Origin: Candidatus Falkowella caecavicola
Lineage (GTDB): Bacteria > Bacillota > Clostridia > Oscillospirales > Ruminococcaceae
Direction: 5' to 3'
NCBI GenBank assembly: GCA_904420125.1
Contig: CAJFUK010000029.1
Location: forward strand, 1 to 64,000
Length of the DNA stretch: 64,000 nt
The notes under the pieces are model-generated. The model did no database searches, was not told the DNA's origin, and was given only the letters and a program-made list of their open reading frames with translations. The translations under genes were made by a program, and so were the position numbers. Below are positions 2,120 through 56,534 of this stretch, piece by piece; within the stretch, counting starts at the first letter, position 1; each line of letters begins with the position of its first letter.

Positions 2120-2158
2120 AAAAATCCGGCAGGGAATGATTTTCCCTGCCGGATTTTT
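2120..2158. terminator. Bidirectional terminator between ypeB and the alpha-xylosidase gene
   Basis: A perfect 17-bp inverted repeat (2120-2136 with 2142-2158), A-rich on one side and T-rich on the other, lies between two convergent genes and can end transcription from both. Confidence 0.8.
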
Positions 2159-2198
2159 ATCCTGATAATCTACATACTGCCAATTCCTCAAATCCGGA

Positions 2199-4496: not shown

Positions 4497-4615
4497 AACA
4501 GTCACCATGCCTTTGCAGTGCAAAAGCGATCCTTTCTTTCAAAAATTGAGCCAGTGTAAAATTGCTATGCATAAAAAGGGTCCGCACGATGATTTTTACT
4601 TTCATCTACCATTTA

Positions 4616-4640
4616 CATGTAACACTGGACAAGTTACATG
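4616..4640. promoter_or_regulatory. Dyad in the yicI leader
   Basis: The inverted repeat CATGTAAC-N9-GTTACATG lies about 120 nt upstream of the yicI start and downstream of its probable promoter. It could be a repressor operator or an RNA hairpin; it has no U tract. Confidence 0.35.
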
Positions 4641-4746
4641 ATACTGCCTGCCCCGGCTAGCATTCCCTTTCTGCAAGGAGTCTCCGGACGGCTATCGGCA
4701 AAACATCTCATCCTGCCGTCAAAAATTCCGAGACAACCATGACTAC

Positions 4747-4775
4747 ATCATAATATACTCGCCTGTAAAGATCAA
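4747..4775 (-). promoter_or_regulatory. Probable promoter of yicI
   Basis: On the minus strand TTGATC (4770-4775) and TATGAT (4747-4752) are 17 bp apart. It would give a leader of roughly 245 nt. Confidence 0.5.
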
Positions 4776-4813
4776 GTGTTATTTGTAAATTTTTCAGAGG
4801 ATATGCAGCCGAT

Positions 4814-6565
4814 TTATTCCTGCGAAGTCTCTGCCGGTTCTGCAATCCGTATCATAATTTCAACCGGTGCAGTTCCCCAAAAATGGAAGGTGCATTTTGT
4901 GTCCTCATCCAGCATCTCTAAAAAATGTTTTGTCAATACAATGCCGGAATCTGTGACATAAAAATCTTCATCATACCGCAGATACGGCGTCCAGCTATCC
5001 TGGGTACTGGCATTGGCGCCGCTCTCGACTTCTACCGCGGATACCGTCTGCAAAGAAGCGCCGTAAAATTCGACCGAAACCGTCAGATCAAATTTTTCAC
5101 CCTGTGCCGAGAGCGTATATTCTGTGTGCCCAACGGTCGGCTGATTGATCTGAAAGATATCTAAATGGTAATCCGCACCCTCGGAGAATCGGAAATCCAA
5201 TGTAGCACTGAGGCCGTATTCTGTTTTCTGGACCGACTCCAGATATTCCCGCTTTAAAGTCACAACGTTGCCATCAAGTAGATAATCTTGTCCCAGTGTC
5301 AACGCACGCTCTCCTTCATAAATGCCCTGCAGGGTGTTACCTCGAAGTTCCATATTCACTTTTTTATCTTCCAGCTGTTCTGACGGATTGAGATAAATAG
5401 CGCCCGGAATGACAAACGAATTCTCCTGCGATCCCGCTGCCTGTAAAATGATTTCCGCAATCCGCGGATAATTCCATTCTTTCGCAGACCGGTTATAGAT
5501 GGTGCCATTATCCCACAGCATTACAGAGATCTGATTTGCCTGTGCAGTTTCCGTAATATAGTCGTACCAGTATAATTGCGCGGGTTCGTATACATAAGCG
5601 TTGCAGGCAAATTCAGTCAACAAGACCGGTATGCCCTTAGCTACATAGGTATCGTGCAAACGCACAAAAAGATCCTGTACTACGTTCTTATCTTCTTCTG
5701 TGCCCCAGGAAGTTTTTCCCCACCAATTAGAAACAAAGTCCCAGGGGGAATAATAATGGAACGTCACCATCAAACGGTCATCTTCCGGTAGAACCAGTCC
5801 CTCCATGGTCTTCTCTGGATCATTTCCGGATCCACTGAGAATTAAGCACCGTTCTGTATTACCGCCACCTGTAGCCCGTACTGTTTCTACAAATTCACGG
5901 TTTAACGTATTGAGCTGATCATCGGTTAAAGTAGTCGGCGGTTCATTCAGCGCTTCAAAAAGCAGGAACTGACTTTTATCTTTAAACCGCTCTGCAATCT
6001 GACTCCAGATCTTGACAAATTTTTGGGTGGTTTCTTCCGGCTGTTCGGTCATATTTGCAACCCATTCCCAGGAATCATGATACATGTTGAGTACCGCATA
6101 AGCACCCTGATCAATCACCCAGTCTACAACCTGCTCCACCCGATCTAACCAAATCGAATCAATGATATAATCAGGGCCTTCACCGACATGATGCGTCCAG
6201 GTAACTGGTATCCGAATACTGCGAAATCCATCTGCCAGAATGCCATCAATGGTCGATTTCTCGACCAGTTCATTGTTCCAGGACGTCTCGGTTGGAATGG
6301 CATCCAGCGAATTCCCAAGATTCCATCCCGGCTGCATGGCCTGCGCCATTTCGATCGGAGTCTGCTGGTTGAACGAATTTGGCTCCTGCAGTTCCGATTC
6401 TTCTTCCACTTGACTTTGTGTCTGACTTTCGGCAGAAGAAACAAATGGCTCGGATGAAAGTGTGTCGCTGCTGGTTGTTTCCCCCGTCCGACAGCCTGCC
6501 AGAATACTCATCGACAACACGGCGGCCAAACAAAGAGCCTGTATCTTAATAAATTGATCTTTCAT
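4814..6565 (-). CDS. Secreted GH5 endoglucanase lipoprotein
   Basis: Endo-acting beta-glucanase displayed on the cell surface. Residues 1-25 are a lipoprotein signal with lipobox ILAGC (Cys25), followed by a Ser/Gln/Glu-rich linker to about 68. The GH5 barrel spans about 70-375: GWNLGNSLD, MYHDSW, acid/base Glu208 in ALNEPP, HYY at 270-272 and nucleophile Glu318 in LLTEFA. From about 385 comes a CBM_X2-like beta-sandwich (IYLNPSEQLED...), then a further domain of about 100 residues to the end that I cannot name. Start set by GGAGG before the ATG. Exact substrate (cellulose, xyloglucan or mixed-linkage glucan) cannot be read from sequence; the adjacent alpha-xylosidase favours xyloglucan. Confidence 0.88.
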   Translation of the reverse strand: MKDQFIKIQALCLAAVLSMSILAGCRTGETTSSDTLSSEPFVSSAESQTQSQVEEESELQEPNSFNQQTPIEMAQAMQPGWNLGNSLDAIPTETSWNNELVEKSTIDGILADGFRSIRIPVTWTHHVGEGPDYIIDSIWLDRVEQVVDWVIDQGAYAVLNMYHDSWEWVANMTEQPEETTQKFVKIWSQIAERFKDKSQFLLFEALNEPPTTLTDDQLNTLNREFVETVRATGGGNTERCLILSGSGNDPEKTMEGLVLPEDDRLMVTFHYYSPWDFVSNWWGKTSWGTEEDKNVVQDLFVRLHDTYVAKGIPVLLTEFACNAYVYEPAQLYWYDYITETAQANQISVMLWDNGTIYNRSAKEWNYPRIAEIILQAAGSQENSFVIPGAIYLNPSEQLEDKKVNMELRGNTLQGIYEGERALTLGQDYLLDGNVVTLKREYLESVQKTEYGLSATLDFRFSEGADYHLDIFQINQPTVGHTEYTLSAQGEKFDLTVSVEFYGASLQTVSAVEVESGANASTQDSWTPYLRYDEDFYVTDSGIVLTKHFLEMLDEDTKCTFHFWGTAPVEIMIRIAEPAETSQE

Positions 6566-6975: not shown

Positions 6976-7010
6976 CAAAAAAAACGGGCAGCCACAGCCG
7001 CCCGTTTTTT
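6976..7010 (-). terminator. Terminator of the carbohydrate ABC operon
   Basis: An 11-bp stem (6979-6989 with 7000-7010) rich in G/C, flanked by A and T tracts, lies about 84 nt after the last permease stop codon. On the minus strand it ends in eight Ts. Confidence 0.8.
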
Positions 7011-7093: not shown

Positions 7094-8104
7094 CTAACCA
7101 ACGATACCCGCGCGTTCCATACCTTCTACAAAATATCTCTGACCGACCAGATAGACAATAATCAGCGGCAAGATAAATAAGCCGCACCCTGCATATTTTG
7201 TCGGGATAACGTATGTAAGGTTGGTAACCTCCGAACTACCAGTAATAGCGGATGTGATATTAACCAAACGTACAGCCAGCGTACGGTTTGCAGATTCCAA
7301 ATACATATCCGGTTCAAACACATCATTCCAATGCCATACAAAGGAAAGCAGAATAACGGATACCATCGGCGCCGTAGCATTCGGCCACATAATCCGCATA
7401 TATGTCCGGAAAGGACCGCATCCATCGATATAGCCCGCCTCTTCCAACTCTTTGGGCATACCACGGTAGAACTGTCGGAACAGATAGATAAACAAACCGC
7501 TCTTTAATCCGACACCAAAGAAGGAAGGCAAAATTAATGGAACAAAGGTATTGACCAGATTGATGGGTCCGCCCGTAATCGCCGTGAATATACCGAAAAT
7601 ATCAAAGGTTCTGTACTGCAGGTACTGCGGGAGGACAATCGTCTGGACCGGAATAATCAGCGTCAGAATGACCAAAGCGAAAATCAGGTTTTTCTCTTTG
7701 AATTTAAAACGCGCAAATCCATATCCGATAAAAGAACAGGTGATCGTCTGCAACACAGTTGTCGTCACAGCAATAATCAAAGTATTTTTCAAGCCGGCCA
7801 AATAGTCGATAGCCTCAAAAGCTGCTGGATAGTTGGAAAGGCTGGGATGCTTTGGAACCCATACGGTTGTCGAGTCCAGCATATCCGCCTGCGACTTCAG
7901 GCTGGTAGAAACAATATAGATGACAGGATAAATCAAAACATATACCAGACCGGTAAAAAGAATCAGAAGGAAAATGTTGAGCAACACATTCTTCCAGAAA
8001 GGGGCCTGTTTGACTTTATGTTTCTGGCGATTCAGCCACTGATTGAACGTCGGGCCTTTCTTTTTCAAACCGGCTGGTTTTGCCGAAATTGCTTTTTGAC
8101 TCAC
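7094..8104 (-). CDS. Carbohydrate ABC transporter permease, MalG-like (pair 2)
   Basis: One inner-membrane half of a sugar importer. The 336-residue protein has a basic N-terminal tail of about 35 residues, six predicted membrane segments and the EAA loop EEAGYIDGCGPFRTYMRIMWP that touches the ATPase. It is slightly longer than usual for MalG-type subunits. The start is GTG with GGAGG upstream. It is the last gene of the operon and pairs with the permease just upstream (18-nt gap). No ATPase gene is in the operon, so a shared MsmK-type ATPase elsewhere is inferred. Confidence 0.88.
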   Translation of the reverse strand: MSQKAISAKPAGLKKKGPTFNQWLNRQKHKVKQAPFWKNVLLNIFLLILFTGLVYVLIYPVIYIVSTSLKSQADMLDSTTVWVPKHPSLSNYPAAFEAIDYLAGLKNTLIIAVTTTVLQTITCSFIGYGFARFKFKEKNLIFALVILTLIIPVQTIVLPQYLQYRTFDIFGIFTAITGGPINLVNTFVPLILPSFFGVGLKSGLFIYLFRQFYRGMPKELEEAGYIDGCGPFRTYMRIMWPNATAPMVSVILLSFVWHWNDVFEPDMYLESANRTLAVRLVNITSAITGSSEVTNLTYVIPTKYAGCGLFILPLIIVYLVGQRYFVEGMERAGIVG

Positions 8105-8122
8105 TTCTATTCCCTCCGTCCT

Positions 8123-9355
8123 TTAATCGTTCATATAAAACGCTTTTCTGGAAATCAGTCCGACAACAATCACCAGCACGACAGCGATGATGGCAAAATA
8201 AATCCAGGATAGCGCCGAACTATAGCCATAATCAAGCGTAGTGCCAAAGGCCGTGTCTTGTATGTACTCTAAGGTCTTATTATTAATGTCTGTAAACGAG
8301 TCAACAACTGTGTAAACAACATTAACAATAATGATCGGAGAGATCATCGGGAAGGTAATTTTCCAGAAAGCCTCCCAAGCCGTACAACCCTCAATCGAAG
8401 CACTTTCATACAAAGAAGGAGAGATTGACTGCAGCCCGGACAGGAATAGCAAGATCTGTACGCCGGACTTCCAGATAACGTCATAAATTCGGTCCATGGC
8501 ATTGGTGAAATATTCAACCATGGGATTGTAGTTGGTCATCTGGAGCAACATGGTCTTAAAGTCAACTGTTCGCAGCAGCGGCATACCCGAACCGCCAGCC
8601 GCACCAGAAAACTGTGCCGACATATCGCTGCTCATAACAGACATCAACGCTCCGGACATAATGATAACCGGCAGGAAGAAAGCTGCACGGACCAATCCAC
8701 GCCCTCTGAATTTCCGGTTAAGCAAAACCGCAATAAAAAGACTAAAGAAAACAACCATGACGATATCCATTGCCATAATCGACAGGGTATCAATCAGCAA
8801 CGGAATAAATTCCGCATCGGAAACGAATGCCTTTTGATAGTTATCCCATCCAAGAAATTGCAGTTCCAGCCCGGTCCTGGTCGTTGAAACTCTGCTGAAA
8901 GAAAATTGTAAAGACTGCACCAGTGGCCTAGCAACAAACAACAGGAATCCGACAAACCATACATAGACGAAACAACGTCCGGCTACCCTCTGGCTCTTTT
9001 GTAAGCTTCTGAACTTCTTTGGCCGACGGTTGGCGGCTTTTGCTGCCGCTTTCTGCGCTCTGACTGCCTTTTTAGCTGCCTTTGCCTGTGCTTTTTGCGC
9101 CTGTGCCGCTTTCTTATCAGCCGGTTTTACAGCCTTTTGCACCTGCGCCTTAGGATCAACCGACTTTTCAGTATTCGGCACAACTTTCTCAACAGCCTGC
9201 TTCTCCGCTTTTTTTGCTTTAGCGGACTTTTTCTCTTCCTTCTGTGCCTTAACCGCCATCTTGACCTGATCGTCTTTGGAGGACTTTGTCTGTTTGGTCT
9301 CTGCATTTACTGCAGCATCAGCCGTATCCTGATTGGGTGTTTTTTTCTCTTCCAC
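8123..9355 (-). CDS. Carbohydrate ABC permease, MalF-like, with Lys/Ala-rich N-terminal extension (pair 2)
   Basis: Inner-membrane permease subunit. Residues from about 125 on are a typical MalF-like subunit with six membrane segments and the EAA loop ESASIEGCTAWEAFWKITFP. Ahead of it is an unusual cytoplasmic tail of about 120 residues made mostly of Lys, Ala and Gln in short repeats (AQKAQAKAAKK, VRAQKAAAKAANRR). The tail is strongly basic and probably helical; I know no function for it. The start is GTG after a G-rich Shine-Dalgarno. It lies 17 nt after the DUF5696 gene and 18 nt before its partner permease. Confidence 0.86.
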   Translation of the reverse strand: MEEKKTPNQDTADAAVNAETKQTKSSKDDQVKMAVKAQKEEKKSAKAKKAEKQAVEKVVPNTEKSVDPKAQVQKAVKPADKKAAQAQKAQAKAAKKAVRAQKAAAKAANRRPKKFRSLQKSQRVAGRCFVYVWFVGFLLFVARPLVQSLQFSFSRVSTTRTGLELQFLGWDNYQKAFVSDAEFIPLLIDTLSIMAMDIVMVVFFSLFIAVLLNRKFRGRGLVRAAFFLPVIIMSGALMSVMSSDMSAQFSGAAGGSGMPLLRTVDFKTMLLQMTNYNPMVEYFTNAMDRIYDVIWKSGVQILLFLSGLQSISPSLYESASIEGCTAWEAFWKITFPMISPIIIVNVVYTVVDSFTDINNKTLEYIQDTAFGTTLDYGYSSALSWIYFAIIAVVLVIVVGLISRKAFYMND

Positions 9356-9371
9356 AACTGTCCCCCCTATC

Positions 9372-11861
9372 TTATTTTACCAGCGCAAAGGATAAGGCGT
9401 CAACCCTTACACCATCCGCGCTGTAGGCTTCTGTCTCGTTGTAATTGACGATGACAGACACGCCGTTTTCATATGTGGTTCTGTACACCTGGTCTGCTAA
9501 CTTTTCATGATTTACCATTCTCTGATTATATACCAGATCATAGTATTCTCCTGCCAGTTCCTGATATTTAATGGCATTGGGGAGCCATTCTTCATAGTTA
9601 CAGGAGAACAAGGTATTCAGTTCCGTTCCCAGCAAAATCGAGGATTCTTCCTGCATACCAATATAATGAGGAATTGCACCGTATTCTATAGACTGCAGGA
9701 AGGACTTTGTTTTATCGCTGGAAAGGTTATATGCAGGACCGGAATAAGTAATGTACCCATGAATGACCATCTGGTAGAAAGGAACAGATTCCGATTCCAT
9801 ATAAAATCCGGAGTTTTCCAAGGGTACATCCGTCAGATCGGTTGCATATCCCCAAGTATACGCGTTTCCATAGGTGAGCATCACTTTTTCTGCCTGAGAA
9901 GCTAAGATGTCCAGAGATTCGTATAAATAATCTGCAATCTGGTCACGGTAGGTGATTTTCTTTTCCGCATACTCGGAATAAACCAATTCACCGATACTCT
10001 CCAACCCGATATTTTTGAGTCCGATCTCTGCGGTACTGTTTACATATTTCTGTACAGCCTCCGGCAGAGACAAATAGGTAGTTTTATACCAGGTATGAGA
10101 CGATTTATCCGCTTTTCGGGAGGTATTATCCTGACGGTAATACTTATAGGAGAAACTGATACCATTGCTGACGTTTCTCACAGCATGTTCACTGGAAGAG
10201 AAGCCATCGCCTGTTTGATGTACCTCCACCAGTTCGCCGGCCAGGAAAAGATTGTCTCCGTTTTCTAGGGTATAATCCTGCAAAGCCAGCAAACCTTCTT
10301 CTCCGCCCAGTTTTGCCGCCGGTTTAACTTCAGTGGTCCATGTACTCATGTACCCGCCGCTGTTAAACCCATAGTACTTGAGATTGACGTTGTCAATTCC
10401 ATTTTCCGCCAGATGATCCAGCATATCCTGGGTACCCTCAAAACTGGTTAAGGCGGTAAACCTGGTCAGCGGAATACCGATAAAGGAACTTTCAATCCGC
10501 AGGCCGCCCAAGACATCCAAATGCATATCAACAGAATCTGTTACCTTGTCTTTCAATACGCCCTGCTCAAGCAGATATTCCTGGTATTCTTCTGCCATGC
10601 CAACATAATTTGCTTTATCATCCTGCAGAAGATGATACTCCACGGTAATATCCTTGGTGATTGGGGTAGGAGACAAAGTCCGGTAGTTTGCATTATTGGT
10701 GGTCGCACTGTCATATACGCTTAAAGAACCGACCGCGCGATAGATGAACGCCGGATAGACACGGAAAAAGTTATTCATGTTCCCCGCTACGCCGCTGCGG
10801 ATATTCATTGCAAACTCACCGCTTGTGGCAATGCCCAAAAATCCAGTATCATTCTTTTTGTTACCAAATACCGGCATCCGGTAACCGTTCTCAACCGGCA
10901 TCGAACCGGGATCATTCATCGAAAGATCCTGCCCGTATACCGTTCTTGCCAGTTCGATACCGGTATAGTTGGTATCAAAGTTGATCAATGCGCCGGAACC
11001 GTCTGGAACAAAGAGATATCCGTCATCTGTTTTCTGTCCAGCATTGAAATAGGGGAGAACATAGACATAGTTAATCAATACTTCATCATTATCCTGAATA
11101 CCACCGCTCGGAATCGTTACATTAAATCCGGTGTCAGTCAGGGTATACTCAACAACAACCTTTAACTCTTCTCCCTTCGGCACTTCAAACGAACTGCTGT
11201 TCAATGCCGAGAAGTTATATGTCACCCGGATTCCATTGTCTATTTTCTCGGTTGTAAAATTGCCGTCTCTGGTACAATTGAGATAAGATGACTCGATAGT
11301 CTCTGTCATATTGGAAATCGAGATTTCGCCCTCTTTGGTGATCTGTCTTTTATAGACGTTGATCACAATATGCGAAGCGATCATAAACTTATTGACGCCC
11401 TTGGCCAATGTATCGGACTCCCACTCCAAAGGAACGCCGGTCCATGTTCTGCCGGTCTGTTTATCCCGGATGCCGATGTCAGCCAGACTATCGCAAAAAT
11501 ACATAATATACTGACTGTTTTCTGCAATCACTTCTGTATAAAGGTCGTCAAACTCAATTGGTTGAACTTCTTCCTCGCCTTCCTGCGTCCCTTCTTCCGG
11601 AACAGACTCTTCTGTATTTTCTGCTGTTCCTTCTTCCTGCGATGCTTCTGCCTCCGTATCCGTAGCTGACGCATCTGCCGGGGTACTCTCTTCTGTGGCT
11701 GCAACAGCTTCAGAAGATTCCACAGAAGTTTCAGGCTGGGTGACTTCATCTTCTGGAGCCGCCCCAACAGTGAAGGTGATCGAAGTCAGTATCGAAGCCA
11801 ACATACAAAGGGCGAGAATTCCAGTCAAAAATCTTTTCCCTTTTTTGAACAACGACTGCAT
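9372..11861 (-). CDS. Secreted DUF5696-domain protein
   Basis: Large exported protein of unknown biochemical function. Residues 1-34 are a signal peptide without a lipobox (cleavage near VGA-AP), followed by a very acidic Glu/Thr/Ser linker to about residue 100. The remaining 730 residues match the DUF5696 family that occurs beside sugar ABC transporters in Paenibacillus-like and gut Clostridia genomes. Asp/Tyr-rich stretches and a second half that looks like a TIM barrel (NVNLKYYGFNSGG, VMLTYGNAYTWGY) suggest a glycoside-binding or hydrolysing protein; this is inference. RBS GGGGGAG precedes the ATG. It sits between the YIP1 gene and permease pair 2. Confidence 0.72.
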   Translation of the reverse strand: MQSLFKKGKRFLTGILALCMLASILTSITFTVGAAPEDEVTQPETSVESSEAVAATEESTPADASATDTEAEASQEEGTAENTEESVPEEGTQEGEEEVQPIEFDDLYTEVIAENSQYIMYFCDSLADIGIRDKQTGRTWTGVPLEWESDTLAKGVNKFMIASHIVINVYKRQITKEGEISISNMTETIESSYLNCTRDGNFTTEKIDNGIRVTYNFSALNSSSFEVPKGEELKVVVEYTLTDTGFNVTIPSGGIQDNDEVLINYVYVLPYFNAGQKTDDGYLFVPDGSGALINFDTNYTGIELARTVYGQDLSMNDPGSMPVENGYRMPVFGNKKNDTGFLGIATSGEFAMNIRSGVAGNMNNFFRVYPAFIYRAVGSLSVYDSATTNNANYRTLSPTPITKDITVEYHLLQDDKANYVGMAEEYQEYLLEQGVLKDKVTDSVDMHLDVLGGLRIESSFIGIPLTRFTALTSFEGTQDMLDHLAENGIDNVNLKYYGFNSGGYMSTWTTEVKPAAKLGGEEGLLALQDYTLENGDNLFLAGELVEVHQTGDGFSSSEHAVRNVSNGISFSYKYYRQDNTSRKADKSSHTWYKTTYLSLPEAVQKYVNSTAEIGLKNIGLESIGELVYSEYAEKKITYRDQIADYLYESLDILASQAEKVMLTYGNAYTWGYATDLTDVPLENSGFYMESESVPFYQMVIHGYITYSGPAYNLSSDKTKSFLQSIEYGAIPHYIGMQEESSILLGTELNTLFSCNYEEWLPNAIKYQELAGEYYDLVYNQRMVNHEKLADQVYRTTYENGVSVIVNYNETEAYSADGVRVDALSFALVK

Positions 11862-11878
11862 TAATACTCCCCCTTTAC

Positions 11879-12514
11879 TTAAGAATTAAATTTCAGTTCC
11901 AACGCCACTGTAGAAAGGAAGGATACCAGCTGCTGGAAAGTACTGAAAATAATGATACCGATAAAAATTGCTGCTGCAATACCTAAAATCGTGAAAATTC
12001 CCATCGCTAATGTTTTGCCCATGGTATAATCCTGAATTGTCAGATTTCCAAAAATCAGCAAAATGATGGTCCAGTACCATGCGCACTGATTCAGAACATT
12101 CATGATTGCCCCTTCATCACTGGTCAGGAACAAACTCAAAATCAGCCACGGAATTAATAATATGATCAATGGGAACAATGAAAAACAGGTCTGCACCCAA
12201 AGCTGTTTCATCGTTGCTTTACCGTTAAACAGCGTACTCAATGCCCAGTTCATAATGGTCCACGCCGCTACCGGCAGCACATATGTTGCAATCGTGGAAA
12301 GAAGATTAATATCTTCAGGCTCCGTCCAATTAAAAATATAGCCGGAAAATTGTTCAATCAGCACCTGCATCAGGCATACCAGGAACAAAATGCAGTTAGC
12401 TGCAGCAAAGGTATGTTTTTTATGATATTTCAGTTCCCAAAACCCATCAAAGGGATGAATCATAATATGAAAAGCATAACACCCTGTGTGTAATATTTCT
12501 TTCGCTGTATTCAT
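11879..12514 (-). CDS. YIP1-family membrane protein
   Basis: A 211-residue integral membrane protein with about five hydrophobic helices and almost no extramembrane domain. The N-terminal segment around HPFDGFWELKYHKK and the overall plan match bacterial YIP1-family proteins, which often accompany DUF5696 and NHL proteins in sugar-uptake operons. Role unknown; a membrane partner or assembly factor for the transporter is inferred. RBS AAGGAGGA, start ATG. The gaps to both neighbours are about 17 nt, so it is cotranscribed. Confidence 0.65.
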   Translation of the reverse strand: MNTAKEILHTGCYAFHIMIHPFDGFWELKYHKKHTFAAANCILFLVCLMQVLIEQFSGYIFNWTEPEDINLLSTIATYVLPVAAWTIMNWALSTLFNGKATMKQLWVQTCFSLFPLIILLIPWLILSLFLTSDEGAIMNVLNQCAWYWTIILLIFGNLTIQDYTMGKTLAMGIFTILGIAAAIFIGIIIFSTFQQLVSFLSTVALELKFNS

Positions 12515-12532
12515 AGTTTGTCTCCTCCTTCC

Positions 12533-13984
12533 TTAAGAATTAATATAACGAATAAAGGATATATTGTGCTTTTTAAGGATTTTAAAGACAACTACTACAA
12601 GAATAAGAACAACAACAATACCCACTACAATTTCCGTAAAATGTTCTCTCAATACAATATTTCTTTGTTTTTCAAAAGCATCTGAATAATATTCACGGTT
12701 GCGTCCATTTTTAAAGGCTTCCATTGCGCCGTCATAATCCTCTGCTTTTAAAAGTGCTTTACCGATTCCAATATAGGCAAGGTCATAGTTGGAATCCATA
12801 GCCAATACCTCCTGCCAGGGTTCCAGAGATTCTGCATATTCTCCATCCTGGTATAAGCGGTTGGCCTCTAAAATCTTTTCACCAAATTCGGTTCTTCCAA
12901 AGATCGTAATCATTCCATTTGTTTCATCCAAAACATAGACCTTGTTATCCTTGAGTTCTATTGCTGCCGGAGAAGTAAACAATCCATTGGCCGTTCCTTC
13001 ACCGCCGAAGTTAAACAACAGGTTTCCATATGAATCATATACAAACACTTTACAGGAAGTTTTATCCAGCGCGTAGATATTATCATCCTCATCCACACGA
13101 AGATCGACAAAGGCAGTGACCTTGTTCCATCCTGTTGGCGTCCTGACATAGTTTCCATATTTATTTCCTGTACGGCCCTCTGTAATCAAAACGTTAGATC
13201 CCTTCGCGTTAAGCCGTTTGATCTGATCTGTCTCTACCTTTTGTGTTGTGGTATAGACGAAATCGCGGTCATCTACCAAAACGTTGGAATATTCAGTCGG
13301 TACAAACTGTTCACGTTTTTGCTTCTGCTCACGTGTCAGGAACATACGGTAAATGATTTCCAGCGGATCCGGCACAACCGAGTTACTTCCGAAGAATTTG
13401 ACAAACTCGCCATCTTCATTCAGCTGAATCAGACCATCCGTACAGGCCACCGATACAACGTAGATTCTGCCGGCAGAGTCTACGCTGACCTTTTGAGGCT
13501 TAAACGTATTTGACGAACCAGTCAAAACAACGTTAGCAATGATCTGCAGAAGATTTCCATCCTCATCCAGCTTAACAATCCGCGCATTCTGTGTATCACA
13601 AATATACATATTAAAATCAGAATCAACGAAAATGCCTTCTGGCAAGTTAAAGGTCTCACGTGTGCCGTTATTATCAAAGCCATCAAAAATCGCGTCGACC
13701 TCAAAATCCTCAGTAAACCGGATCACGCGGTTTTTTACCGATTCTACAAGGTAAAATCTTCCCATAGAATCTACTTTCAAATCTTTCGGAGCAGAAAGGC
13801 TTTCCAGTCCCAGATCTCCGCCCCAAAGAACCTTTTCAGGCTCATACGCATTTAACGTCGGAATTTCCGAAAGGCTCCGTCCATAGTTATAACCGCTGTA
13901 CGGGGTAAACGCACTGACAGTTAAACTAAAAAGCGTTAGGAAAACAAAAGTAAATGCGATGGTTTTTATATAAATCCGTTTCAT
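12533..13984 (-). CDS. NHL-repeat and TPR protein, membrane-anchored at both ends
   Basis: Predicted surface protein. It has an N-terminal signal or anchor (residues 5-25), then about 300 residues of NHL-type beta-propeller repeats (LKVDSMGRFYLVESVKNRVI, EGIFVDSDFNMYICDTQNAR, RVDEDDNIYALDK), a TPR-like helical pair near 400-440 (AYIGIGKALLKAEDYDGAME) and a C-terminal membrane helix (EIVVGIVVVLILVVVVF) with a short basic tail. NHL propellers bind proteins or carbohydrates; here it probably forms an external scaffold or receptor for the ABC system. It lies between the two permease pairs in the same operon. Confidence 0.7.
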   Translation of the reverse strand: MKRIYIKTIAFTFVFLTLFSLTVSAFTPYSGYNYGRSLSEIPTLNAYEPEKVLWGGDLGLESLSAPKDLKVDSMGRFYLVESVKNRVIRFTEDFEVDAIFDGFDNNGTRETFNLPEGIFVDSDFNMYICDTQNARIVKLDEDGNLLQIIANVVLTGSSNTFKPQKVSVDSAGRIYVVSVACTDGLIQLNEDGEFVKFFGSNSVVPDPLEIIYRMFLTREQKQKREQFVPTEYSNVLVDDRDFVYTTTQKVETDQIKRLNAKGSNVLITEGRTGNKYGNYVRTPTGWNKVTAFVDLRVDEDDNIYALDKTSCKVFVYDSYGNLLFNFGGEGTANGLFTSPAAIELKDNKVYVLDETNGMITIFGRTEFGEKILEANRLYQDGEYAESLEPWQEVLAMDSNYDLAYIGIGKALLKAEDYDGAMEAFKNGRNREYYSDAFEKQRNIVLREHFTEIVVGIVVVLILVVVVFKILKKHNISFIRYINS

Positions 13985-14002
13985 TCCTCTCGTTTCCTCC
14001 TT

Positions 14003-14869
14003 TTAGTCTTTCATACCGGATGATTTCATTGTCTCCACGACGTTACTCTGGGTTAAGATGAAAATGGTAATCGGCGGAATCATCAAAATGAAACCAACCG
14101 CAGCCGATGCGCCCATACGCGCCAGACCGCCAGCCTGTACATAGGACAGTGCTAATGGGAAAGTTTTCATCGCTTCCTGACGAATATAAAGGGAGACAGA
14201 ACCACTGTCATTCCAGGAAGCCTGGAATGCAAACAGTGTCAGGGTCAGCCATGCTGGCTTTACGTTCGGCATAACAATACGCCAGAAGATCCGGAACTCG
14301 GAAGCACCGTCAATTCGTGCAGCCTCCAGAATTGCGTCGTTGATCTGTTCCATAAACTGCTTCATCAGGTATAATCCCAGGGTACTGACCATCATCGGAA
14401 CGATAACGGCGTAATATGTATCCAGCCATCCCAAAGAATCCATCAGAAGGAAGCGCGGGATGTTGACAACGAAGCCGGAAAACATCAAAGAGATAACCAC
14501 TGTCTGGAACATAAAATTCTTTCCTGGAAACTTGTTTTTGGCCAGCGGATAGGCTGCCATGGAAGCCAGAATAACGTGTCCGAAGGTTCCGACAGCACTG
14601 ATAAAAATACTGTTAAACAAGTAACGCGAAAGCGGGATAAATGAGTTTCCCAATGCCGCAAACAGATCTTTAAAGTTTTGGGTTGTAGGATGCCGGACAA
14701 AAAACGTCGGCGGGAATTTCAGCAATTCATTAATAGGCTTAAAAGCAAGGTTTACTGTATAAACCAGTGGAAGTACCATAAAGCAGGCAACCAACGTCAG
14801 GCATATGGTGATTAAAATATTGCCCCCAATGGATCTCGTGCTTTTTAAGCCAACTCTTCTCGAACTCAC
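14003..14869 (-). CDS. Carbohydrate ABC transporter permease, MalG-like (pair 1)
   Basis: A 288-residue permease with six membrane segments and a clear EAA loop (EAARIDGASEFRIFWRIVMP). It has the normal length for the family, with no extension. The start is GTG, preceded by GAGGAG about 11 nt upstream. It pairs with the 318-residue permease encoded just upstream and, by position, with the large solute-binding protein. Confidence 0.9.
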   Translation of the reverse strand: MSSRRVGLKSTRSIGGNILITICLTLVACFMVLPLVYTVNLAFKPINELLKFPPTFFVRHPTTQNFKDLFAALGNSFIPLSRYLFNSIFISAVGTFGHVILASMAAYPLAKNKFPGKNFMFQTVVISLMFSGFVVNIPRFLLMDSLGWLDTYYAVIVPMMVSTLGLYLMKQFMEQINDAILEAARIDGASEFRIFWRIVMPNVKPAWLTLTLFAFQASWNDSGSVSLYIRQEAMKTFPLALSYVQAGGLARMGASAAVGFILMIPPITIFILTQSNVVETMKSSGMKD

Positions 14870-14915
14870 TTAGACACTCACTCCTCTTTATACGATATCA
14901 ATCTTGGGTCTATTT

Positions 14916-15872
14916 TTAATCACCAGGTTTAATCAGCTTACGCACGGCAAAGTTGGATGCCAGCGTCAGAGCAAACAGAATCACCGCAATCGAACAGGCA
15001 TACCCCATCTCGTATCGCACGGTACCATAGTCCATCATGTGAAGAACAATCGTATGTGCTGAGTACAGTGGGCTGGGGTTACCGACCAGCGCGGAGCTGA
15101 CGTCCGCAACAGAGAACGCTGCTGTAATCTGCATAACCGCACCGAACATCAACTGTCCCTTCATGGAAGGAAGGGTGATGTGCCACAACTCCTGCCAACG
15201 GTTTTTGATACCGTCCAACGCACCTGATTCATATAATGTCCGGTCAACGCCCTGTAGGCCTGCGATAAAGGAAAGGAAGCTGGTACCCAAACTCATCCAG
15301 AGCTGTACAACCATAACGATTCCAAGCGTCCATTCAGGATTCATCAGCCAGAGGACCGGTGTTTTTACCAGGCCTAACTTTAACAGAAGACCGTTTAAAA
15401 GACCATTAGAGTCTGCTGAAAAGATATAGGTCCAGATAAAGAAAACGTTACCGGAAATAGAAGGTGCATAAAAGAACAGTGTTGCAATGGCACGGATCTT
15501 CGGCCGCAGCTCATTGATAAACCACGCAAACAATAAACACGCCAGATAACTGAGCGGTCCGGTGACAACTGCAAACACCATGGTGTTTCGCAGCGAAATC
15601 AGGAAGACCGAGTCGTCTAAGAACAACCGCATGTAGTTGTCCCAACCGATAAAACGTGCAGGTTCAATAATGTTGTAGTAAGTAAAACTTAATCCAATCG
15701 CCATTGCTACCGGCACGACCGTAAAGAGAACAAACAGAATCATGAAGGGCGCCAACAGGACGTAGGAAGCCCGGTTCCGTTTTATCTCCTTCCAGGTATA
15801 AGCCGCTCTTTCCTTAAAGGGCAGTGCGCGTACACCTGTTTTTACGGATGCCGTATTTTGATTTCCAGCCAC
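14916..15872 (-). CDS. Carbohydrate ABC transporter permease, MalF-like (pair 1)
   Basis: Six-helix permease of 318 residues with EAA loop ESGALDGIKNRWQELWHITL and the family-typical opening with the first membrane segment after a basic stretch. Starts at GTG with AAGGGGG upstream. It lies 22 nt after the solute-binding protein gene and 46 nt before its MalG-like partner, so the three form the core importer. Confidence 0.9.
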   Translation of the reverse strand: MAGNQNTASVKTGVRALPFKERAAYTWKEIKRNRASYVLLAPFMILFVLFTVVPVAMAIGLSFTYYNIIEPARFIGWDNYMRLFLDDSVFLISLRNTMVFAVVTGPLSYLACLLFAWFINELRPKIRAIATLFFYAPSISGNVFFIWTYIFSADSNGLLNGLLLKLGLVKTPVLWLMNPEWTLGIVMVVQLWMSLGTSFLSFIAGLQGVDRTLYESGALDGIKNRWQELWHITLPSMKGQLMFGAVMQITAAFSVADVSSALVGNPSPLYSAHTIVLHMMDYGTVRYEMGYACSIAVILFALTLASNFAVRKLIKPGD

Positions 15873-15894
15873 AAAATATACCCCCTTGCCCTTA

Positions 15895-18846
15895 TTAGTC
15901 GTTCAGATTCAGCTCTTCGCGTTTTGCCTGAATCTCTAAAGTGATCTCTTCTGTATATTTTACAATAGATTCCCTCGGCACCTCAATATTATTGATAACC
16001 TCATTAAATGCGTTATTCAGGTGACGGGAAGTATAGTAACTACCCGGAACAACCGGTGTTTCAACAACGTTTCTCCACTGGGTGATAATGGTATCATAAA
16101 TGTCGCGGGGCCATGCCAGATAAGAAACCGCTTCGATGTTTGCCGTATTATATCGGGCAGCTGCACCAAGAATTGCCTCCAACTCTCTTGCATATTCTAC
16201 CTGCGTCTCGGTAGACATCCACCATTTCATGAATTCCCAGGCGTTTTCCTGTTTTTTGGTTCCCTCGCCAACCTGCGCAAGCATAACGCAGGAGGTTCCT
16301 CCGTTACCAGCGATCGCATTGTTGATGGTTCCATCTTCCTGTACTGTGCCAGGCAGAGCAGCCATGCCCCACAGACCTTTGATTTCCGGAGCGGCAACAG
16401 CGATCTGATTGTATAACGTATAGTCGCCGAAGCCTAAAGGCATTTCTCCGTTTCTGAAACGGTTATAGAAGTCGGAGGATACCGGCAGTCCGTACAGGGT
16501 ATACAGTTCACAGTATTCCTGGAAAGACTGTACACTTTCCGGTGAATCCAGCAAGCATTCAGACAGATCGTCGGAATAATATTGTCCGCCGCGCTGATAC
16601 AGCATTGTAGTAAAGATCGGAAGGCCGCCAGGAGAAACATCCAGGTTGTTTTCCTGAATCGTTCCGAGTGCCGTATAGAACTCTTCCCAGGTCTCCGGGA
16701 CCTTGATGCCCAGTTCACCTAAAATATCCTTCCGGTAGAACATAACCATAAAGCCCTGTGTCTGCGGCAGCGCATAGACTGCATCACCATAAGTATAAGG
16801 CGTAAATGCGCTCGGCATAAACCAGCTCTGTACTTCATCGAATCCTTCCAGCTTAGACAGATCGACCAGTGCATTACGCACACCGTAGTCAATCGGCAGT
16901 GTACCGGAGGTTCCAAGCGCTACATCCGGACCTTCTCCGGAAGCCGTTGCATAGAGAAGTGTCGATTCATTTGAAAGAATATTAAAGTTTACCTTAATAC
17001 CGGTTTCTTTTGTAAAACCATAGTCAATCATTTTCTTTAACGTGGTCGCCTGGTCACGTCCTAAGGTTGCCCATACTGTAATGACATCTTCCTCGTCTTC
17101 CTGATAGGCGTTACCGATCGAGGAGTCATCAATGGTAAAGGACACAAAGAACTTCTTGATTTCATACCAGGCGCCTTCAAAAAAGCCAGGCTCTGCAGGA
17201 TCCATCTCCTGATCGGGAGAAGCAACCACAAGATAGTCAATTTCCACCGGCTGATTTCTGGCAGTCAGCGCCCAGGATGCCAGCGAAGAAATATTGGATT
17301 TAAAATTACTTAACACATTGGAAATAACGTCCGGATTTTCAATCATCTCTTCTATCTGCTGAATCAGCTGGTCAATAACAGCCGCTTCGTTGGTCGAAGA
17401 AGAGCTCAGTGCAACAATTGCATCAGCCTGTTCCTGCAGACGAGCTTGCAGTGATGTCAGCTGATCGATCAGATCCGGCAGACGGGCATCCAGACGGTAG
17501 TCACGATAGATGTCCGGGCTTGGACCTGTAATCATAATGATGCGGGTATACAGATCGGTCAGATCCAGAACCAGTTCCTGAATCGAACGGAGAATCTCTG
17601 CAACTTCACCCATATTCATTTTCAAACGGATCGTATGGGTACCCGCCGTCAGTTCAAATTTATAGGGATTTCCTTCTGCATCGCTGATCCACATGGACTG
17701 AAAAGCGGTGTCATAATTAAAATGGATCATCTTTGCTTCCGAGAACGGTACCTCGCCGTCAATCGTCAGTTCACGGGTCGCCGGGAAACTGATGCTGGTA
17801 GACTGGCGGAAACGCATACCGATTGTATACAAGCCATCTTCAGGAACTTCAAATTCCCATTGGATCCACTGATTGGGAAGATTCCAGTTGGTGCTGCCGA
17901 TGGTATTCAACCGGGAACTCTTCAAATCGGTAGGTATTGTATAGGCGCTGGACTTATCCGAAATCGGATATAAGCTGGCGTCTGATTTCAGGACAGCATC
18001 TTCACCCTGAATCATAATTTTATGCCCGCTGGTATCCTGCATGGTATATTCTGCAGAAACCTCTGCATAACTTTCCGGAAGTTCATATGTAAAAAGGGTA
18101 ATTTTTTCAAAAATAACAGGTTCTTTCACCGAAGTCAGCCGAATCGTATGCTTTCCCTGTGAAAAGTAAAATTTAAATGGGTCTATGGTCAAACCATCTG
18201 AGTCCACCAGATCGGTTTCAGTCCACATGGGAACCTCAACTTGTGTAGGACGGATATCGTTTCCCTGATTATCGCGCTGGAAAAACTGTCCTTCCACCCA
18301 GCCTTCTTCCTGTTTCTGCTCTTCGGTATATTCCTCGTTTACCCAGTTTCGTTTCAGGGTAAAGACCGCCGCTTCAGAAAAGGGAACTTCTCCATCGATC
18401 CGCAGTTCCCTTTCAATATCCGAGCTTTTCCCGGCAACTGTATAATAAGAAATATTGATACTGTACAAACCATCTGCCGGAATATCTACTTCCCATTCCA
18501 GGAAGCCATCCTCTCCGGACTCTACAACTTTTCCGGAAACGCCCTCGTATCCGTCATGTACCTGTACCTCTCCTTCGCTGGCCGTATAATCCGCTGCTTG
18601 AATCACAATCGGATTTTGGCCATCAGGAACAGAAGCATATTCGGAAATATACTCTGCATAGGAGACTCTTTCTTCATACAAGGGTGAATCATCCTCTTCT
18701 TCACCCGCCGCAGTATCGACAGCAGCAACCGCTGTGTCTTCGATACCTTCTGTGTTTGCTACGTCTTCAGCGCTTACGGTAATTCCGCCGGCTACCAGGC
18801 TTAACGTCATGGACAGCGCCAGCAACATCGACATAACCCTTTTCAT
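15895..18846 (-). CDS. Giant solute-binding protein with tandem CBM-like domains
   Basis: Extracellular receptor for the ABC importer. At 983 residues it is more than twice the usual size. It has a signal peptide ending near VSA-ED with no lipobox; two N-terminal beta-sandwich units of CBM35/CBM6 type (about 75-260 and 275-430), each carrying the phrase 'LxIDGEVPFSEA'; a helical stretch (about 425-530); then a family-1 solute-binding fold (about 590-983: DVITVWATLGRDQ, GEGPDVALGTSG, WEFMKWWMSTETQ). ATG chosen because AAGGAG lies seven bases upstream; an ATG seven codons earlier overlaps that site. It is the first gene of the operon, after the promoter at 19027-19055. Confidence 0.85.
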   Translation of the reverse strand: MKRVMSMLLALSMTLSLVAGGITVSAEDVANTEGIEDTAVAAVDTAAGEEEDDSPLYEERVSYAEYISEYASVPDGQNPIVIQAADYTASEGEVQVHDGYEGVSGKVVESGEDGFLEWEVDIPADGLYSINISYYTVAGKSSDIERELRIDGEVPFSEAAVFTLKRNWVNEEYTEEQKQEEGWVEGQFFQRDNQGNDIRPTQVEVPMWTETDLVDSDGLTIDPFKFYFSQGKHTIRLTSVKEPVIFEKITLFTYELPESYAEVSAEYTMQDTSGHKIMIQGEDAVLKSDASLYPISDKSSAYTIPTDLKSSRLNTIGSTNWNLPNQWIQWEFEVPEDGLYTIGMRFRQSTSISFPATRELTIDGEVPFSEAKMIHFNYDTAFQSMWISDAEGNPYKFELTAGTHTIRLKMNMGEVAEILRSIQELVLDLTDLYTRIIMITGPSPDIYRDYRLDARLPDLIDQLTSLQARLQEQADAIVALSSSSTNEAAVIDQLIQQIEEMIENPDVISNVLSNFKSNISSLASWALTARNQPVEIDYLVVASPDQEMDPAEPGFFEGAWYEIKKFFVSFTIDDSSIGNAYQEDEEDVITVWATLGRDQATTLKKMIDYGFTKETGIKVNFNILSNESTLLYATASGEGPDVALGTSGTLPIDYGVRNALVDLSKLEGFDEVQSWFMPSAFTPYTYGDAVYALPQTQGFMVMFYRKDILGELGIKVPETWEEFYTALGTIQENNLDVSPGGLPIFTTMLYQRGGQYYSDDLSECLLDSPESVQSFQEYCELYTLYGLPVSSDFYNRFRNGEMPLGFGDYTLYNQIAVAAPEIKGLWGMAALPGTVQEDGTINNAIAGNGGTSCVMLAQVGEGTKKQENAWEFMKWWMSTETQVEYARELEAILGAAARYNTANIEAVSYLAWPRDIYDTIITQWRNVVETPVVPGSYYTSRHLNNAFNEVINNIEVPRESIVKYTEEITLEIQAKREELNLND

Positions 18847-19026
18847 CAAGACACTCCTTTTCACCATACTTGAACCTGCTAAATACCCTTTCTATCATGA
18901 ACGCAAAACGGAATCAGACCCACTGCCCATTTCGCTGTCATCTGGTCAAGGCCACCGTATCCGGTGGATTCTCTGCATATGTGAAAGATCACCAATTACA
19001 GAATTTTAGCACATCGTAACATGATT

Positions 19027-19055
19027 ATTATACATGATATATACCAGCTTGTAAA
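19027..19055 (-). promoter_or_regulatory. Promoter of the carbohydrate ABC operon
   Basis: TTTACA (19050-19055) and TATAAT (19027-19032) on the minus strand, 17 bp apart, about 180 nt upstream of the solute-binding protein start. The perfect palindrome TTGTTAACAA lies about 30 nt upstream and could be an operator. The 18847-19179 gap holds nothing else I recognise. Confidence 0.7.
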
Positions 19056-19179: not shown

Positions 19180-20886
19180 TCACATAATTTTCTGAAATGA
19201 TCCGTCTTTTTGCCGAAAGGCCTTTTTTACATCCTCCGCCGACAGTTTTGGACGCCGGTAGGCATCAAATACGCCTTTATTATTCTGTGTTTTGGGACGG
19301 CTACTCCAGTTTCCTTCGGTCACGCGGCAGTCACAGAACTGCCAGATAAACGCGCCAGTTAAAAACGGTGCCTGTAAGTAGCAGGCCAGATCAGCCTGCA
19401 GGCTGTCTGCCTGCCGCTCTTCGCTCCAGTGTTCCCTTCCCATACTGCGAAACCCATAAACTGCCCCAGCGCCGAATTCACTGATCACCATAGGCTTTCC
19501 TTCGCCCCCATGCGTCCGGGTCCATTCCTGGAGGCTTTTAAGCTTCTCCCATGCATCCTGATCATCATACCAGTTTGCATAAATATTATAGGAGACGATA
19601 TCGGCCAGATCCAGGCACCGGTCAGAAAAATGTGCATTGGAAGCATAGGTGACTGGACGTGTCCGGTCAAAATCACGAATCTGGCCAATCTGACTTTCAT
19701 AATGGTGCCGCACACGCTCGTCCCAGGACGAACACTCATTCAGCACGGCCCAGATGACAATGGAAGGATGGTTATAATGATTTTCGAGCATTTCCTGAAT
19801 ACATACTCGACTCTGGCTTTCAAAAGCGGGATTCTCCATTTCTTCCGGGGACAATCCTCTGGCATGTGCTTCTTCCCAAACCAGCATGCCATAGCTATCG
19901 CATAAATCCAGGAAGCGCTCGTCGTTGGGATAATGGCTGGTACGCACACTGTTGGCTCCCGTTTCCCGCATCAGAGCGAGATCCCGCATCTGGGCTGCCA
20001 GCGGCAGTGCACAACCAAACTGCGGATCATCCTCATGCCGGTTGTATCCTTTCAGGAAAATCGGACGGCCATTGAGCAGCAGCCGGTTCCCGGATACCTG
20101 TATTTCCCGGAATCCAACCCGGTCAATCCAGTCATCGACCGGATAATTTTCGTTCATAAAAAATAATGCCATCTTCAGCAGATAAAGTGCAGGAGATTCC
20201 GGGGACCATTCTTTCACATCCTGCAATACAAAAGATTTTTCAAAAGAAACCTTTCGCCCGGCCGGAACCGTCACTTCCCCGAAGTCCAGGGAAATATGAC
20301 GTCCCAGCTGGCCTTTGCATAAAAGGGTGGCCGGCTTTCCGCAGAGATTGTGCAGCTCCACCCGGATTTGGGCCTCCCAGGCGTTTCCGCATCGTCGCGG
20401 CGTAAAGAAAACCTTTTCAATATAAACATTGTTTAAATATTCCAGACTGACTGGCCTGGTGATCCCGCCGTATGTATAGTAATCATTTTCTTTATGCAGC
20501 GCAGATGCTTCAGAAAAGGAATTATCGACGACCAATTCAATTTCATGCCGGCCTTCGGGCGCATCGGGAAGCAAAATAGAAAAAGGCGTGTACGCGCCAT
20601 AATGACCTCCCACTTTTTTCTTGTTGACATAGACCTCCGCAGTATGGCTGACACCTTTAAAAACAAGGCGCAGATTGGATTTTCTTTTGGTAAAAATCAC
20701 CTTCCGGTACAAAGCCCGCCCACGGTATCCACGGCAGGATGGATCCATTTCCCAGCAGCTCGGCACCAGCATTTTTTCACTGCAAGGCTCGCATCCTGTA
20801 AAATCCCCGTCAAGCTTTTGGAATTCCCATATTCCTTCCAAATCCTCTGTATAACGGATTTCATGGGTTTGAAACAGCCTTTCCAT
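19180..20886 (-). CDS. uidA: Beta-glucuronidase (GH2)
   Basis: Cytoplasmic enzyme that cleaves beta-D-glucuronides, such as conjugates of xenobiotics or host glycans. 568 residues in the three-domain GH2 layout: sugar-binding fold, Ig-like domain, then a TIM barrel. Acid/base Glu is in VLNECSS and the nucleophile in ISEFG, followed by a WSEERQ segment that aligns with WSEEYQ of E. coli GUS. Near the C-terminus NNKGVF carries the N-x-K pair that marks glucuronide-specific GH2 enzymes (N566/K568 in E. coli); galacturonidases can also have it. The ATG at MERLFQ has GGGAG eight bases upstream; an in-frame start 69 nt earlier is less likely. A promoter and hairpin lie upstream at 21006-21088. Confidence 0.85.
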   Translation of the reverse strand: MERLFQTHEIRYTEDLEGIWEFQKLDGDFTGCEPCSEKMLVPSCWEMDPSCRGYRGRALYRKVIFTKRKSNLRLVFKGVSHTAEVYVNKKKVGGHYGAYTPFSILLPDAPEGRHEIELVVDNSFSEASALHKENDYYTYGGITRPVSLEYLNNVYIEKVFFTPRRCGNAWEAQIRVELHNLCGKPATLLCKGQLGRHISLDFGEVTVPAGRKVSFEKSFVLQDVKEWSPESPALYLLKMALFFMNENYPVDDWIDRVGFREIQVSGNRLLLNGRPIFLKGYNRHEDDPQFGCALPLAAQMRDLALMRETGANSVRTSHYPNDERFLDLCDSYGMLVWEEAHARGLSPEEMENPAFESQSRVCIQEMLENHYNHPSIVIWAVLNECSSWDERVRHHYESQIGQIRDFDRTRPVTYASNAHFSDRCLDLADIVSYNIYANWYDDQDAWEKLKSLQEWTRTHGGEGKPMVISEFGAGAVYGFRSMGREHWSEERQADSLQADLACYLQAPFLTGAFIWQFCDCRVTEGNWSSRPKTQNNKGVFDAYRRPKLSAEDVKKAFRQKDGSFQKIM

Positions 20887-21005
20887 GATATTTTCTCCCA
20901 TCTTCATTCTTTTTGAACAGTTGGAGAACAACCTTGTCTGTTCTATCTTATGCAAAAATAATGGTTTTCATTTACAAATTTTGTTTAAAAAGTAAAATGT
21001 CCAGA

Positions 21006-22318: not shown

Positions 22319-22582
22319 CTACCATTTTTTCTCTTCTCCCGGACAATCACTGTTGACCCTGGCCGCACGTGCTTCGACGAAGCAGCCGCATTTCCGGCAC
22401 ATACCATCTGCCAGTTCATCACACGTCTTACATAGCTGCAAACGCCGCTGGTAAGTCTCTTCATCTGCCTTTTGCTCTGGCGGCAGCAGCGAGATATACT
22501 CATAAATGCTGGCAAAATACTGCTCCTGATCCATCTCGGAGAGCAGACAGCGACGGCAGAATGGTTTTCCCGGCTTATTCAA
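22319..22582 (-). CDS. DUF6171 small cysteine-rich protein
   Basis: An 87-residue protein with paired CxxC motifs ([25 protein letters not shown]), the zinc-ribbon-like pattern of DUF6171 proteins found across Clostridia. Function unknown. The conserved part starts at KPFCRRC. The only sensible start is a TTG overlapping the abfA stop codon (TTGAATAAG), so translation is probably coupled to abfA. Longer in-frame starts inside abfA are possible but would add non-family residues. It ends before the terminator at 22077-22115. Confidence 0.7.
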
Positions 22583-56517: not shown

Positions 56518-56534
56518 ATCCGTCCCTACTTTCT

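Follow-up and report, generated by a model that had tools for sequence, protein, structure and literature searches.

A gene set conserved in Clostridia and Bacilli that combines two CUT1-type permease pairs with DUF5696, NHL/TPR and YIP1 proteins

The window analysed here, a stretch of 64,000 nucleotides (positions 1 to 64,000 of contig CAJFUK010000029.1, forward strand, assembly GCA_904420125.1) from Candidatus Falkowella caecavicola (Clostridia, Ruminococcaceae), carries eight adjacent genes for a large solute-binding protein (SBP), two permease pairs of the CUT1 type (P1a/P1b and P2a/P2b), an NHL/TPR protein, a YIP1-family protein and a DUF5696 protein. That this gene set is a conserved unit we regard as practically certain, as the order SBP (~990 aa)-P1a-P1b-NHL-YIP1-DUF5696-P2a-P2b was found on one strand in nearly all regions compared in Clostridia and Bacilli, and the seven proteins tested are co-inherited as one unit. 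The gene set is widespread and apparently still undescribed in the open-access literature, where we found no paper naming DUF5696 and none on a combination of YIP1, SBP and permeases or on an operon of NHL, Yip1 and transport genes; subscription papers were outside the search. In function, we give roughly an even chance to a functionally coupled dual CUT1-type importer, with DUF5696 and NHL-YIP1 as non-catalytic membrane organisers.

The eight-gene operon

The eight open reading frames (ORFs) lie on the minus strand in the order large SBP, P1a, P1b, NHL/TPR, YIP1, DUF5696, P2a, P2b, between the following signals:

19027..19055, minus: sigma-A type promoter TTTACA-17-TATAAT, 11/12 consensus matches and the top match of the scan, ~160 nt 5' of the SBP gene
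15895..18867, minus: large SBP, 990 aa; PF01547 SBP_bac_1 97.5 bits, residues 607-889
14916..15872, minus: permease P1a of pair 1, MalF/UgpA-like; BPD_transp_1 39.2 bits; EAA loop ESGALDG
14003..14869, minus: permease P1b of pair 1, MalG/UgpE-like; BPD_transp_1 54.2 bits; EAA loop EAARIDG
12533..13984, minus: NHL propeller with TPR-like segment, 483 aa; NHL PF01436 39.8 bits (cut-off 20); TPR_11 24.3, sub-threshold
11879..12514, minus: YIP1-family integral membrane protein, 211 aa; PF04893 39.5 bits (cut-off 28.6)
9372..11861, minus: DUF5696 protein, 829 aa; PF18952 564.9 bits (cut-off 25.6)
8123..9355, minus: permease P2a of pair 2, MalF-like; BPD_transp_1 37.7 bits; EAA loop ESASIEG
7094..8104, minus: permease P2b of pair 2, MalG-like; BPD_transp_1 48.8 bits; EAA loop EAGYIDG
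6979..7010, minus: intrinsic terminator, 14-nt arms 6979-6992 / 6997-7010, 93% complementary, 4-nt loop, then a T run

All eight genes with their order and strand were recovered as in the original prediction, which had been made from the sequence alone, and Pfam confirms their families, with TPR remaining sub-threshold. The close spacing it described also holds, the measured gaps being 16, 17, 18, 18, 18, 22 and 46 nt in place of about 17-50 nt, and its SBP gene end at 18846 corresponds to an alternative second ATG in an ORF whose longest form ends at 18867. A single promoter and a single terminator were said to enclose the operon, and both are present, at 19055-19027 and as a hairpin with T run at 7010-6979, 84 nt past the end of P2b. 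The terminator is clear, though the automatic terminator scan missed it. Spacing and signals together suggest co-transcription of the eight genes, in support of the predicted carbohydrate uptake operon.

Conservation and co-inheritance

Matches to PF18952 were detected in 90 of the 291 genomes searched from the same class (64 at E<=1e-60) and in 46/398 genomes of a phylum sample. The comparison covered the 20-kb regions around full-length DUF5696 matches together with 80 named contigs, mostly from Paenibacillus and Cohnella and also from Bacillus, Neobacillus, Lederbergia, Thermoanaerobacterium, Acetivibrio and several metagenome-assembled genomes. A strict automatic criterion counts 113 copies as complete; these are partly redundant and not independent, some records occurring twice in two collections (e.g. 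L041/L193, L106/L192 and L100/L141), and their counts are lower bounds because the ORF caller takes the longest non-overlapping frame and spurious antisense ORFs mask some genes. The gene-neighbourhood search that the original prediction had proposed thus finds NHL/TPR, YIP1 and DUF5696 together far beyond the source genome, and not only here. Across the two classes DUF5696 identity is ~23-25%, and the gene order is still stable. As a single-sequence query against the genome contigs, the DUF5696 protein of the window retrieved no relative, since its family has diverged too far for single-sequence patterns to work; an alignment-based scan did find relatives. Weak DUF5696 matches also occur in other proteins, and two that were checked are GH13 alpha-amylases (GH, glycoside hydrolase). 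In one rearranged copy (L044), P1a-like and P1b-like genes lie 5' of the large SBP, and a single P1a-like gene is placed between the latter and NHL.

In a tree of 172 permeases, P1a, P1b, P2a and P2b each formed one clade (approximate likelihood-ratio test support of 100, 98, 99 and 99, respectively), apart from 28 other CUT1-like permeases of these regions, and the same genome groups cluster in all four clades as mirrored subclades. Pairwise distances among the seven proteins correlate at 0.87-0.95 (67 copies), and in a permutation test on four protein pairs 0/1000 permutations reached the observed correlation; this test leaves the species phylogeny in, and many genomes hold several divergent copies. 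The NHL-YIP1 profile was present in 62/291 genomes, 61 of which also encode full-length DUF5696, and the exceptions to this co-occurrence that were checked (G102, G101, G274 and G057) are contig-edge or fragment cases. NHL-YIP1 was not found in any of the seven genomes that hold a short cytosolic DUF5696 form alone.

These data bear on the alternative that the locus encodes two ordinary and mechanically independent CUT1 importers for oligosaccharides of different sizes or kinds, kept in one operon for co-regulation, with DUF5696, NHL/TPR and YIP1 serving separate envelope jobs. The blocks are indeed separable, as NHL/YIP1-DUF5696-P2a-P2b stands ahead of SBP-P1a-P1b in L111 and L116 and occurs without SBP-P1a-P1b nearby in L104, L105, L108 and L109. 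The very stable gene order and the close co-inheritance of every part, across two classes and at such low DUF5696 identity, nevertheless speak against independence, as does recurrence beside many glycosidase families, which argues for one general mechanism and not the needs of one substrate. We consider independent importers doubtful.

Permeases and a probable shared ATPase

Each of the four permeases of the operon keeps an intact EAA loop, the site of ATPase docking, as had been predicted for each pair, and the Glu, Gly and Pro of the loops hardly vary in either pair among ~130-149 relatives per permease; both pairs therefore appear to be maintained as ATP-coupled channels. Intact loops in each pair would also suit two independent importers. 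A dead or sensory pair 2 is unlikely, its own EAA loops being intact. P2a carries an N-terminal tail of ~120 residues that is rich in K, A and E and probably cytoplasmic; the length of P2a in relatives ranges from ~280 to ~490 aa, so the tail is variable.

No ATPase gene lies within the eight-gene operon. This absence had been pointed out before and stands for the locus; it is, however, not peculiar but normal for CUT1 importers of Bacillota, in which orphan ATPases common to several importers, such as MsmX and MsmK, are established (PMC7658222). A stand-alone ATPase of 380 aa with ABC_tran, OB_MalK and TOBE domains is encoded elsewhere in the genome and falls in the UgpC subfamily (NF008653, 485.5 bits against a cut-off of 432). 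With this orphan UgpC/MsmX-type ATPase present, the reading that no ATPase exists was dropped, and carbohydrate uptake is very probably powered by a shared ATPase. MalF/MalG-like pairs with EAA loops, a family-1 SBP and a MalK/UgpC/MsmX-type ATPase in the genome together mark a CUT1 type I ATP-binding cassette (ABC) importer.

Solute-binding proteins

In its AlphaFold2 model (pLDDT 88.9), the large SBP consists of an N-terminal hydrophobic anchor that lacks a lipobox, two beta-sandwich domains, a helical bundle and a MalE-like SBP domain. Residues ~593-981 match Thermotoga maritima MalE3 (Z 37.6, 365 aligned residues, root-mean-square deviation (rmsd) 2.3), and the fold search of the whole model returned matches to the MalE domain throughout. 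The N-terminal extension ahead of this domain (~70-590) looks glycan-protein-like, and its first sandwich is by sequence weakly similar to CBM35, a carbohydrate-binding module (CBM) family (2vzp, E 0.013).

The original prediction recognised one binding protein, which holds for this locus and not for the system. A conventional small SBP of ~450-510 aa stands at one operon end in at least 100 of the 134 copies with both ends visible, either directly 5' of the large SBP (mostly in Paenibacillus) or directly 3' of P2b (mostly in Clostridia), and a single-SBP reading for the family was rejected on this count. The presence of two SBPs in most copies would fit two independent importers. In the closest relative module (L047) the small SBP follows P2b, and after it come a histidine kinase and an AraC-type response regulator (1971-5382, minus strand), likely a dedicated regulator. 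In L053 a DUF4340 protein (4865-6244, minus strand) follows pair 2 in place of the small SBP. The operon of the window has no adjacent small SBP, its flanks being occupied by a GH5 gene downstream and a GH2 gene upstream; the ORF at 22575-24065 (496 aa), considered as the missing second SBP, was rejected as it encodes a GH51 enzyme.

The genome encodes five family-1 SBPs, namely the operon's own, a PotD-like protein, one on contig C27 whose own permeases lie next to it, and two orphans, on contigs C49 and C8, which have no permeases nearby and are members of the small-SBP subfamily (E 3e-56 and 3e-47, respectively):

C49:61732-63126 (L226 9221-10723, minus): orphan SBP, beside pheST
C8:58618-60000 (L227 9119-10525, plus): orphan SBP, after a GH51 gene and before a GH9 gene

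As the sole other CUT1 pair in the genome, on C27, comes with its own SBP, exclusion suggests that one or both of the orphans may feed the permeases of this operon. Among 18 sampled genomes that lack an adjacent small SBP, 10 show no match to the subfamily at E<=1e-20.

Fold and catalytic residues of DUF5696

The AlphaFold2 model of the DUF5696 protein (pLDDT 84.2, pTM 0.84) shows an N-terminal hydrophobic anchor followed by a GH129-like fold of beta-supersandwich, TIM barrel and C-terminal sheet. Its closest structures are DagB of Zobellia galactanivorans (5opq; Foldseek E 1.5e-31; VIA Z 31.4 over 583 residues, rmsd 3.7) and NagBb (5wzn; Z 30.6), with 571-585 residues aligned to GH129-type enzymes overall at 14% identity, and the next-best fold families, GH31, GH101, GH36 and GH13, stand at Z ~20. 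The family profile also reaches 5opq by sequence (E 3e-13) with alignable C-terminal motifs. The Pfam GH129 model PF11308, however, has no match in the whole genome, and PF18952 is the sole family listed for the protein.

In NagBb the catalytic Asp435 corresponds to Asp486 of DagB, the only catalytic residue that the two enzymes share, and DagB further requires Glu517, Glu531 and Asp202 (PMC5698469). Catalytic columns were assigned by sequence alignment and not by superposed coordinates, by way of a profile alignment to the short cytosolic DUF5696-like family (531 columns) and a joint alignment of 163 module proteins. On this basis the window protein carries Ser622 at the nucleophile column and Thr663 at the acid/base column, both acidic residues being replaced, which makes it probably not a canonical glycosidase. 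Among the 163 relatives, Asp is kept at the nucleophile column in 102, Asp or Glu at the second column in 38 and both acidic residues in 26, while the short cytosolic relatives keep both in 7/7 (Glu at the second column in 7/7). The barrel of the family has no invariant Asp/Glu pair. Glu726 (155/163) and an Asn after a GG motif (148/163) are conserved and could serve binding or an unusual chemistry.

An active glycosidase, exo- or endo-acting, that shortens oligosaccharides where they enter the channel would accord with the fold and with the sequence similarity to DagB, with the relatives that keep one or both acidic residues, with conserved acidic columns such as Glu726, and with the fact that DagB and NagBb themselves have only the nucleophile in common. 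The replaced positions in this copy, the missing PF11308 match and the lack of an invariant acidic pair in the barrel speak against it, and we consider it improbable. A minority of DUF5696 copies may be active, most lacking one half of the catalytic pair. Of the predicted hydrolase, then, the GH129-like fold stands, whereas both canonical catalytic positions are lost in this copy, for which reason binding or scaffolding is likelier here than hydrolysis.

DUF5696 had also been proposed as the receptor for pair 2, i.e. as a former glycosidase that substitutes for an SBP and passes bound glycan to the channel. Wherever the two occur, its gene immediately precedes P2a/P2b, even in blocks that lack SBP or pair 1, its distance correlation with P2a is 0.93, it is anchored at the N terminus with its catalytic residues mostly not both kept, and some genomes, such as the ten noted above, show no small SBP of the usual subfamily. 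The proposal is nonetheless made less likely by the conventional SBP that stands at one operon end in most relatives, often directly after pair 2, and by the two orphan SBPs of the genome itself, which has no other free permeases. To our knowledge, the GH129 fold also lacks the type of hinge closure by which MalFGK2-type importers are driven. We rate a receptor role as improbable.

Short DUF5696-like proteins of ~560-600 aa were observed at L119 9434-11116 (minus), L120 7007-8761 (minus) and L123 1087-2787 (plus) and in L121, L122, L124 and L129. They are unlinked to the permease module, have no signal peptide where the N terminus was inspected, give weak Glyco_hydro_101 and DUF6259 matches and look like an uncharacterised family of active glycosidases. 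In L125, L126 and the genomes G075, G150, G194, G215, G236 and G254, module variants have DUF5696 proteins of ~960-1000 aa whose Pfam match breaks in two near profile position 134, which suggests an inserted domain.

Membrane anchoring and the NHL-YIP1 protein

The NHL/TPR protein has hydrophobic segments at 8-26 (signal/anchor helix) and 452-470 (C-terminal transmembrane helix), and its family profile finds NHL and TPR proteins of solved structure. NHL and YIP1 form one ORF of ~700 aa in 34 of the 113 complete copies; a C-terminal YIP1 match was found in 48/50 long NHL ORFs, and in the fusions NHL/TPR runs straight into YIP1. The fusion is a further point against two independent importers. 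It also lends indirect support to the predicted NHL/YIP1 assembly platform, the assembly role itself, like that of the pseudo-glycosidase, being our inference. At its N terminus the large SBP carries a hydrophobic helix, with a credible lipobox essentially absent (71 relatives), and DUF5696 is anchored likewise, with a few clear lipoproteins (L082, L084, L087, L127 and L128). Every extracellular part is thus held at the membrane, in keeping with a standing assembly.

Genomic neighbourhood and likely substrate

The following genes flank the operon, the GH5 gene forming a separate unit:

2199..4523, minus: GH31 alpha-xylosidase, YicI type; NF007940 1230 bits (cut-off 606)
4814..6565, minus: secreted GH5 enzyme with CBM_X2 and CBM46 modules; PF00150 184.4 bits; own promoter-like site at 6652-6624
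19180..20955, minus: GH2 beta-glycosidase; PF02836 169.4 bits
22575..24065, minus: GH51-type alpha-L-arabinofuranosidase, 496 aa; PF06964 178.3 bits
24173..24955, plus: AraC-family regulator; PF00165 66.2 bits

An alpha-xylosidase, an endo-glucanase and debranching enzymes beside an importer are what a locus for xyloglucan or arabinoxyloglucan would be expected to hold, and xyloglucan or arabinoxyloglucan oligosaccharides are the most likely substrate here, judged from the neighbours GH31, GH5-X2-CBM46, GH2 and GH51. Among 83 downstream neighbours of related copies GH26 is commonest (13), and CBM35, GH10, GH5, GH38, GH9, GH28 and GH16 occur too. As such varied glycosidase families adjoin related copies, the uptake machine is not tied to one glycan. 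Further along the window, two very long adjacent ORFs (1183 and 1259 aa) lie at 52966-60314 on the minus strand.

A proposed model of coupled uptake

For the coupled dual importer we propose that secreted enzymes (here GH5) would cut the polysaccharide, and that the large SBP would capture oligosaccharides for pair 1. The small SBP, adjacent in most relatives and probably acting in trans here (the C49 and/or C8 orphans), would feed pair 2, and one orphan UgpC/MsmX-type ATPase would drive both permease pairs. The parts would be tethered by the NHL-TPR-YIP1 protein, and DUF5696, a glycosidase fold that is catalytically altered in most copies, would hold the glycan chain or present it to the permeases. 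Imported products would then be cut in the cytoplasm by GH31, GH2 and GH51. A stronger form, in which NHL-TPR-YIP1 and the pseudo-glycosidase join both ABC importers into one physical super-complex that grips the glycan at the surface and passes fragments to two channels, is put forward tentatively. If true, this would give Gram-positive bacteria an equivalent of surface glycan-uptake machines, and ABC transporters a new class of assembly.

Several points weigh against coupling. The co-inheritance could be explained by co-regulation only, and the ten genomes without a subfamily match fit poorly with a small SBP acting in trans. As the nucleophile Asp persists in 102/163 relatives, the DUF5696 family taken together cannot be called cleanly non-catalytic. 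The gene inventories are lower bounds because the assembly, in 78 contigs, is an estimated 92% complete, and the substrate is read from the neighbours.

Comparison with known systems

The operon shares MalF/MalG-like pairs, EAA loops, a family-1 SBP and an ATPase outside the operon with CUT1 importers that use a shared ATPase of the MsmX, MsmK or UgpC/MalK type (PMC7658222), and differs from them in its two pairs, its 990-aa SBP with N-terminal extension and its obligatory NHL/TPR, YIP1 and DUF5696 proteins. The xyloglucan oligosaccharide importers Ccel_2456-2458 of Ruminiclostridium cellulolyticum and Athe_2052-2054 of Anaerocellum bescii likewise lie beside a GH31 alpha-xylosidase and have CUT1 permeases and no local ATPase, but comprise three genes with one SBP and one permease pair, and the papers mention no NHL, YIP1 or DUF5696 partner (PMC4780118, PMC12710961). 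Two SBPs of different specificity at one uptake locus are known from the cello-oligosaccharide importer Athe_0595-0598 of A. bescii, which however has a single permease pair and no accessory proteins described (PMC12838199). A glucomannan-responsive transporter of Caldicellulosiruptor, Csac_0297-0301 (PMC5658599), may be a copy of the module; it was not used here.

DUF5696 resembles GH129 and GH129-like glycosidases such as NagBb and DagB over the whole length of the fold (Z 30-31), and differs from both in its replaced catalytic positions, its membrane anchor, its location with permease genes and its missing PF11308 match. In Bacteroidetes, SusCD-type loci combine surface glycan-binding proteins, an import machine and glycosidases. 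The likeness to these is by analogy only, as the operon described here is Gram-positive and ABC-driven and has no homologous parts.

Clostridia and Bacilli alike have kept the gene set intact, frequently as several copies per genome and next to many kinds of plant-polysaccharide genes. It is probably a major fibre-uptake route of gut and soil bacteria, yet two of its fixed parts are known only as 'DUF5696' and 'YIP1'. The coupled dual importer would explain DUF5696 as a GH129-like fold that often lacks the full catalytic pair, would give bacterial YIP1 proteins a concrete partner, and would make the coupled-pair working of ABC importers testable.

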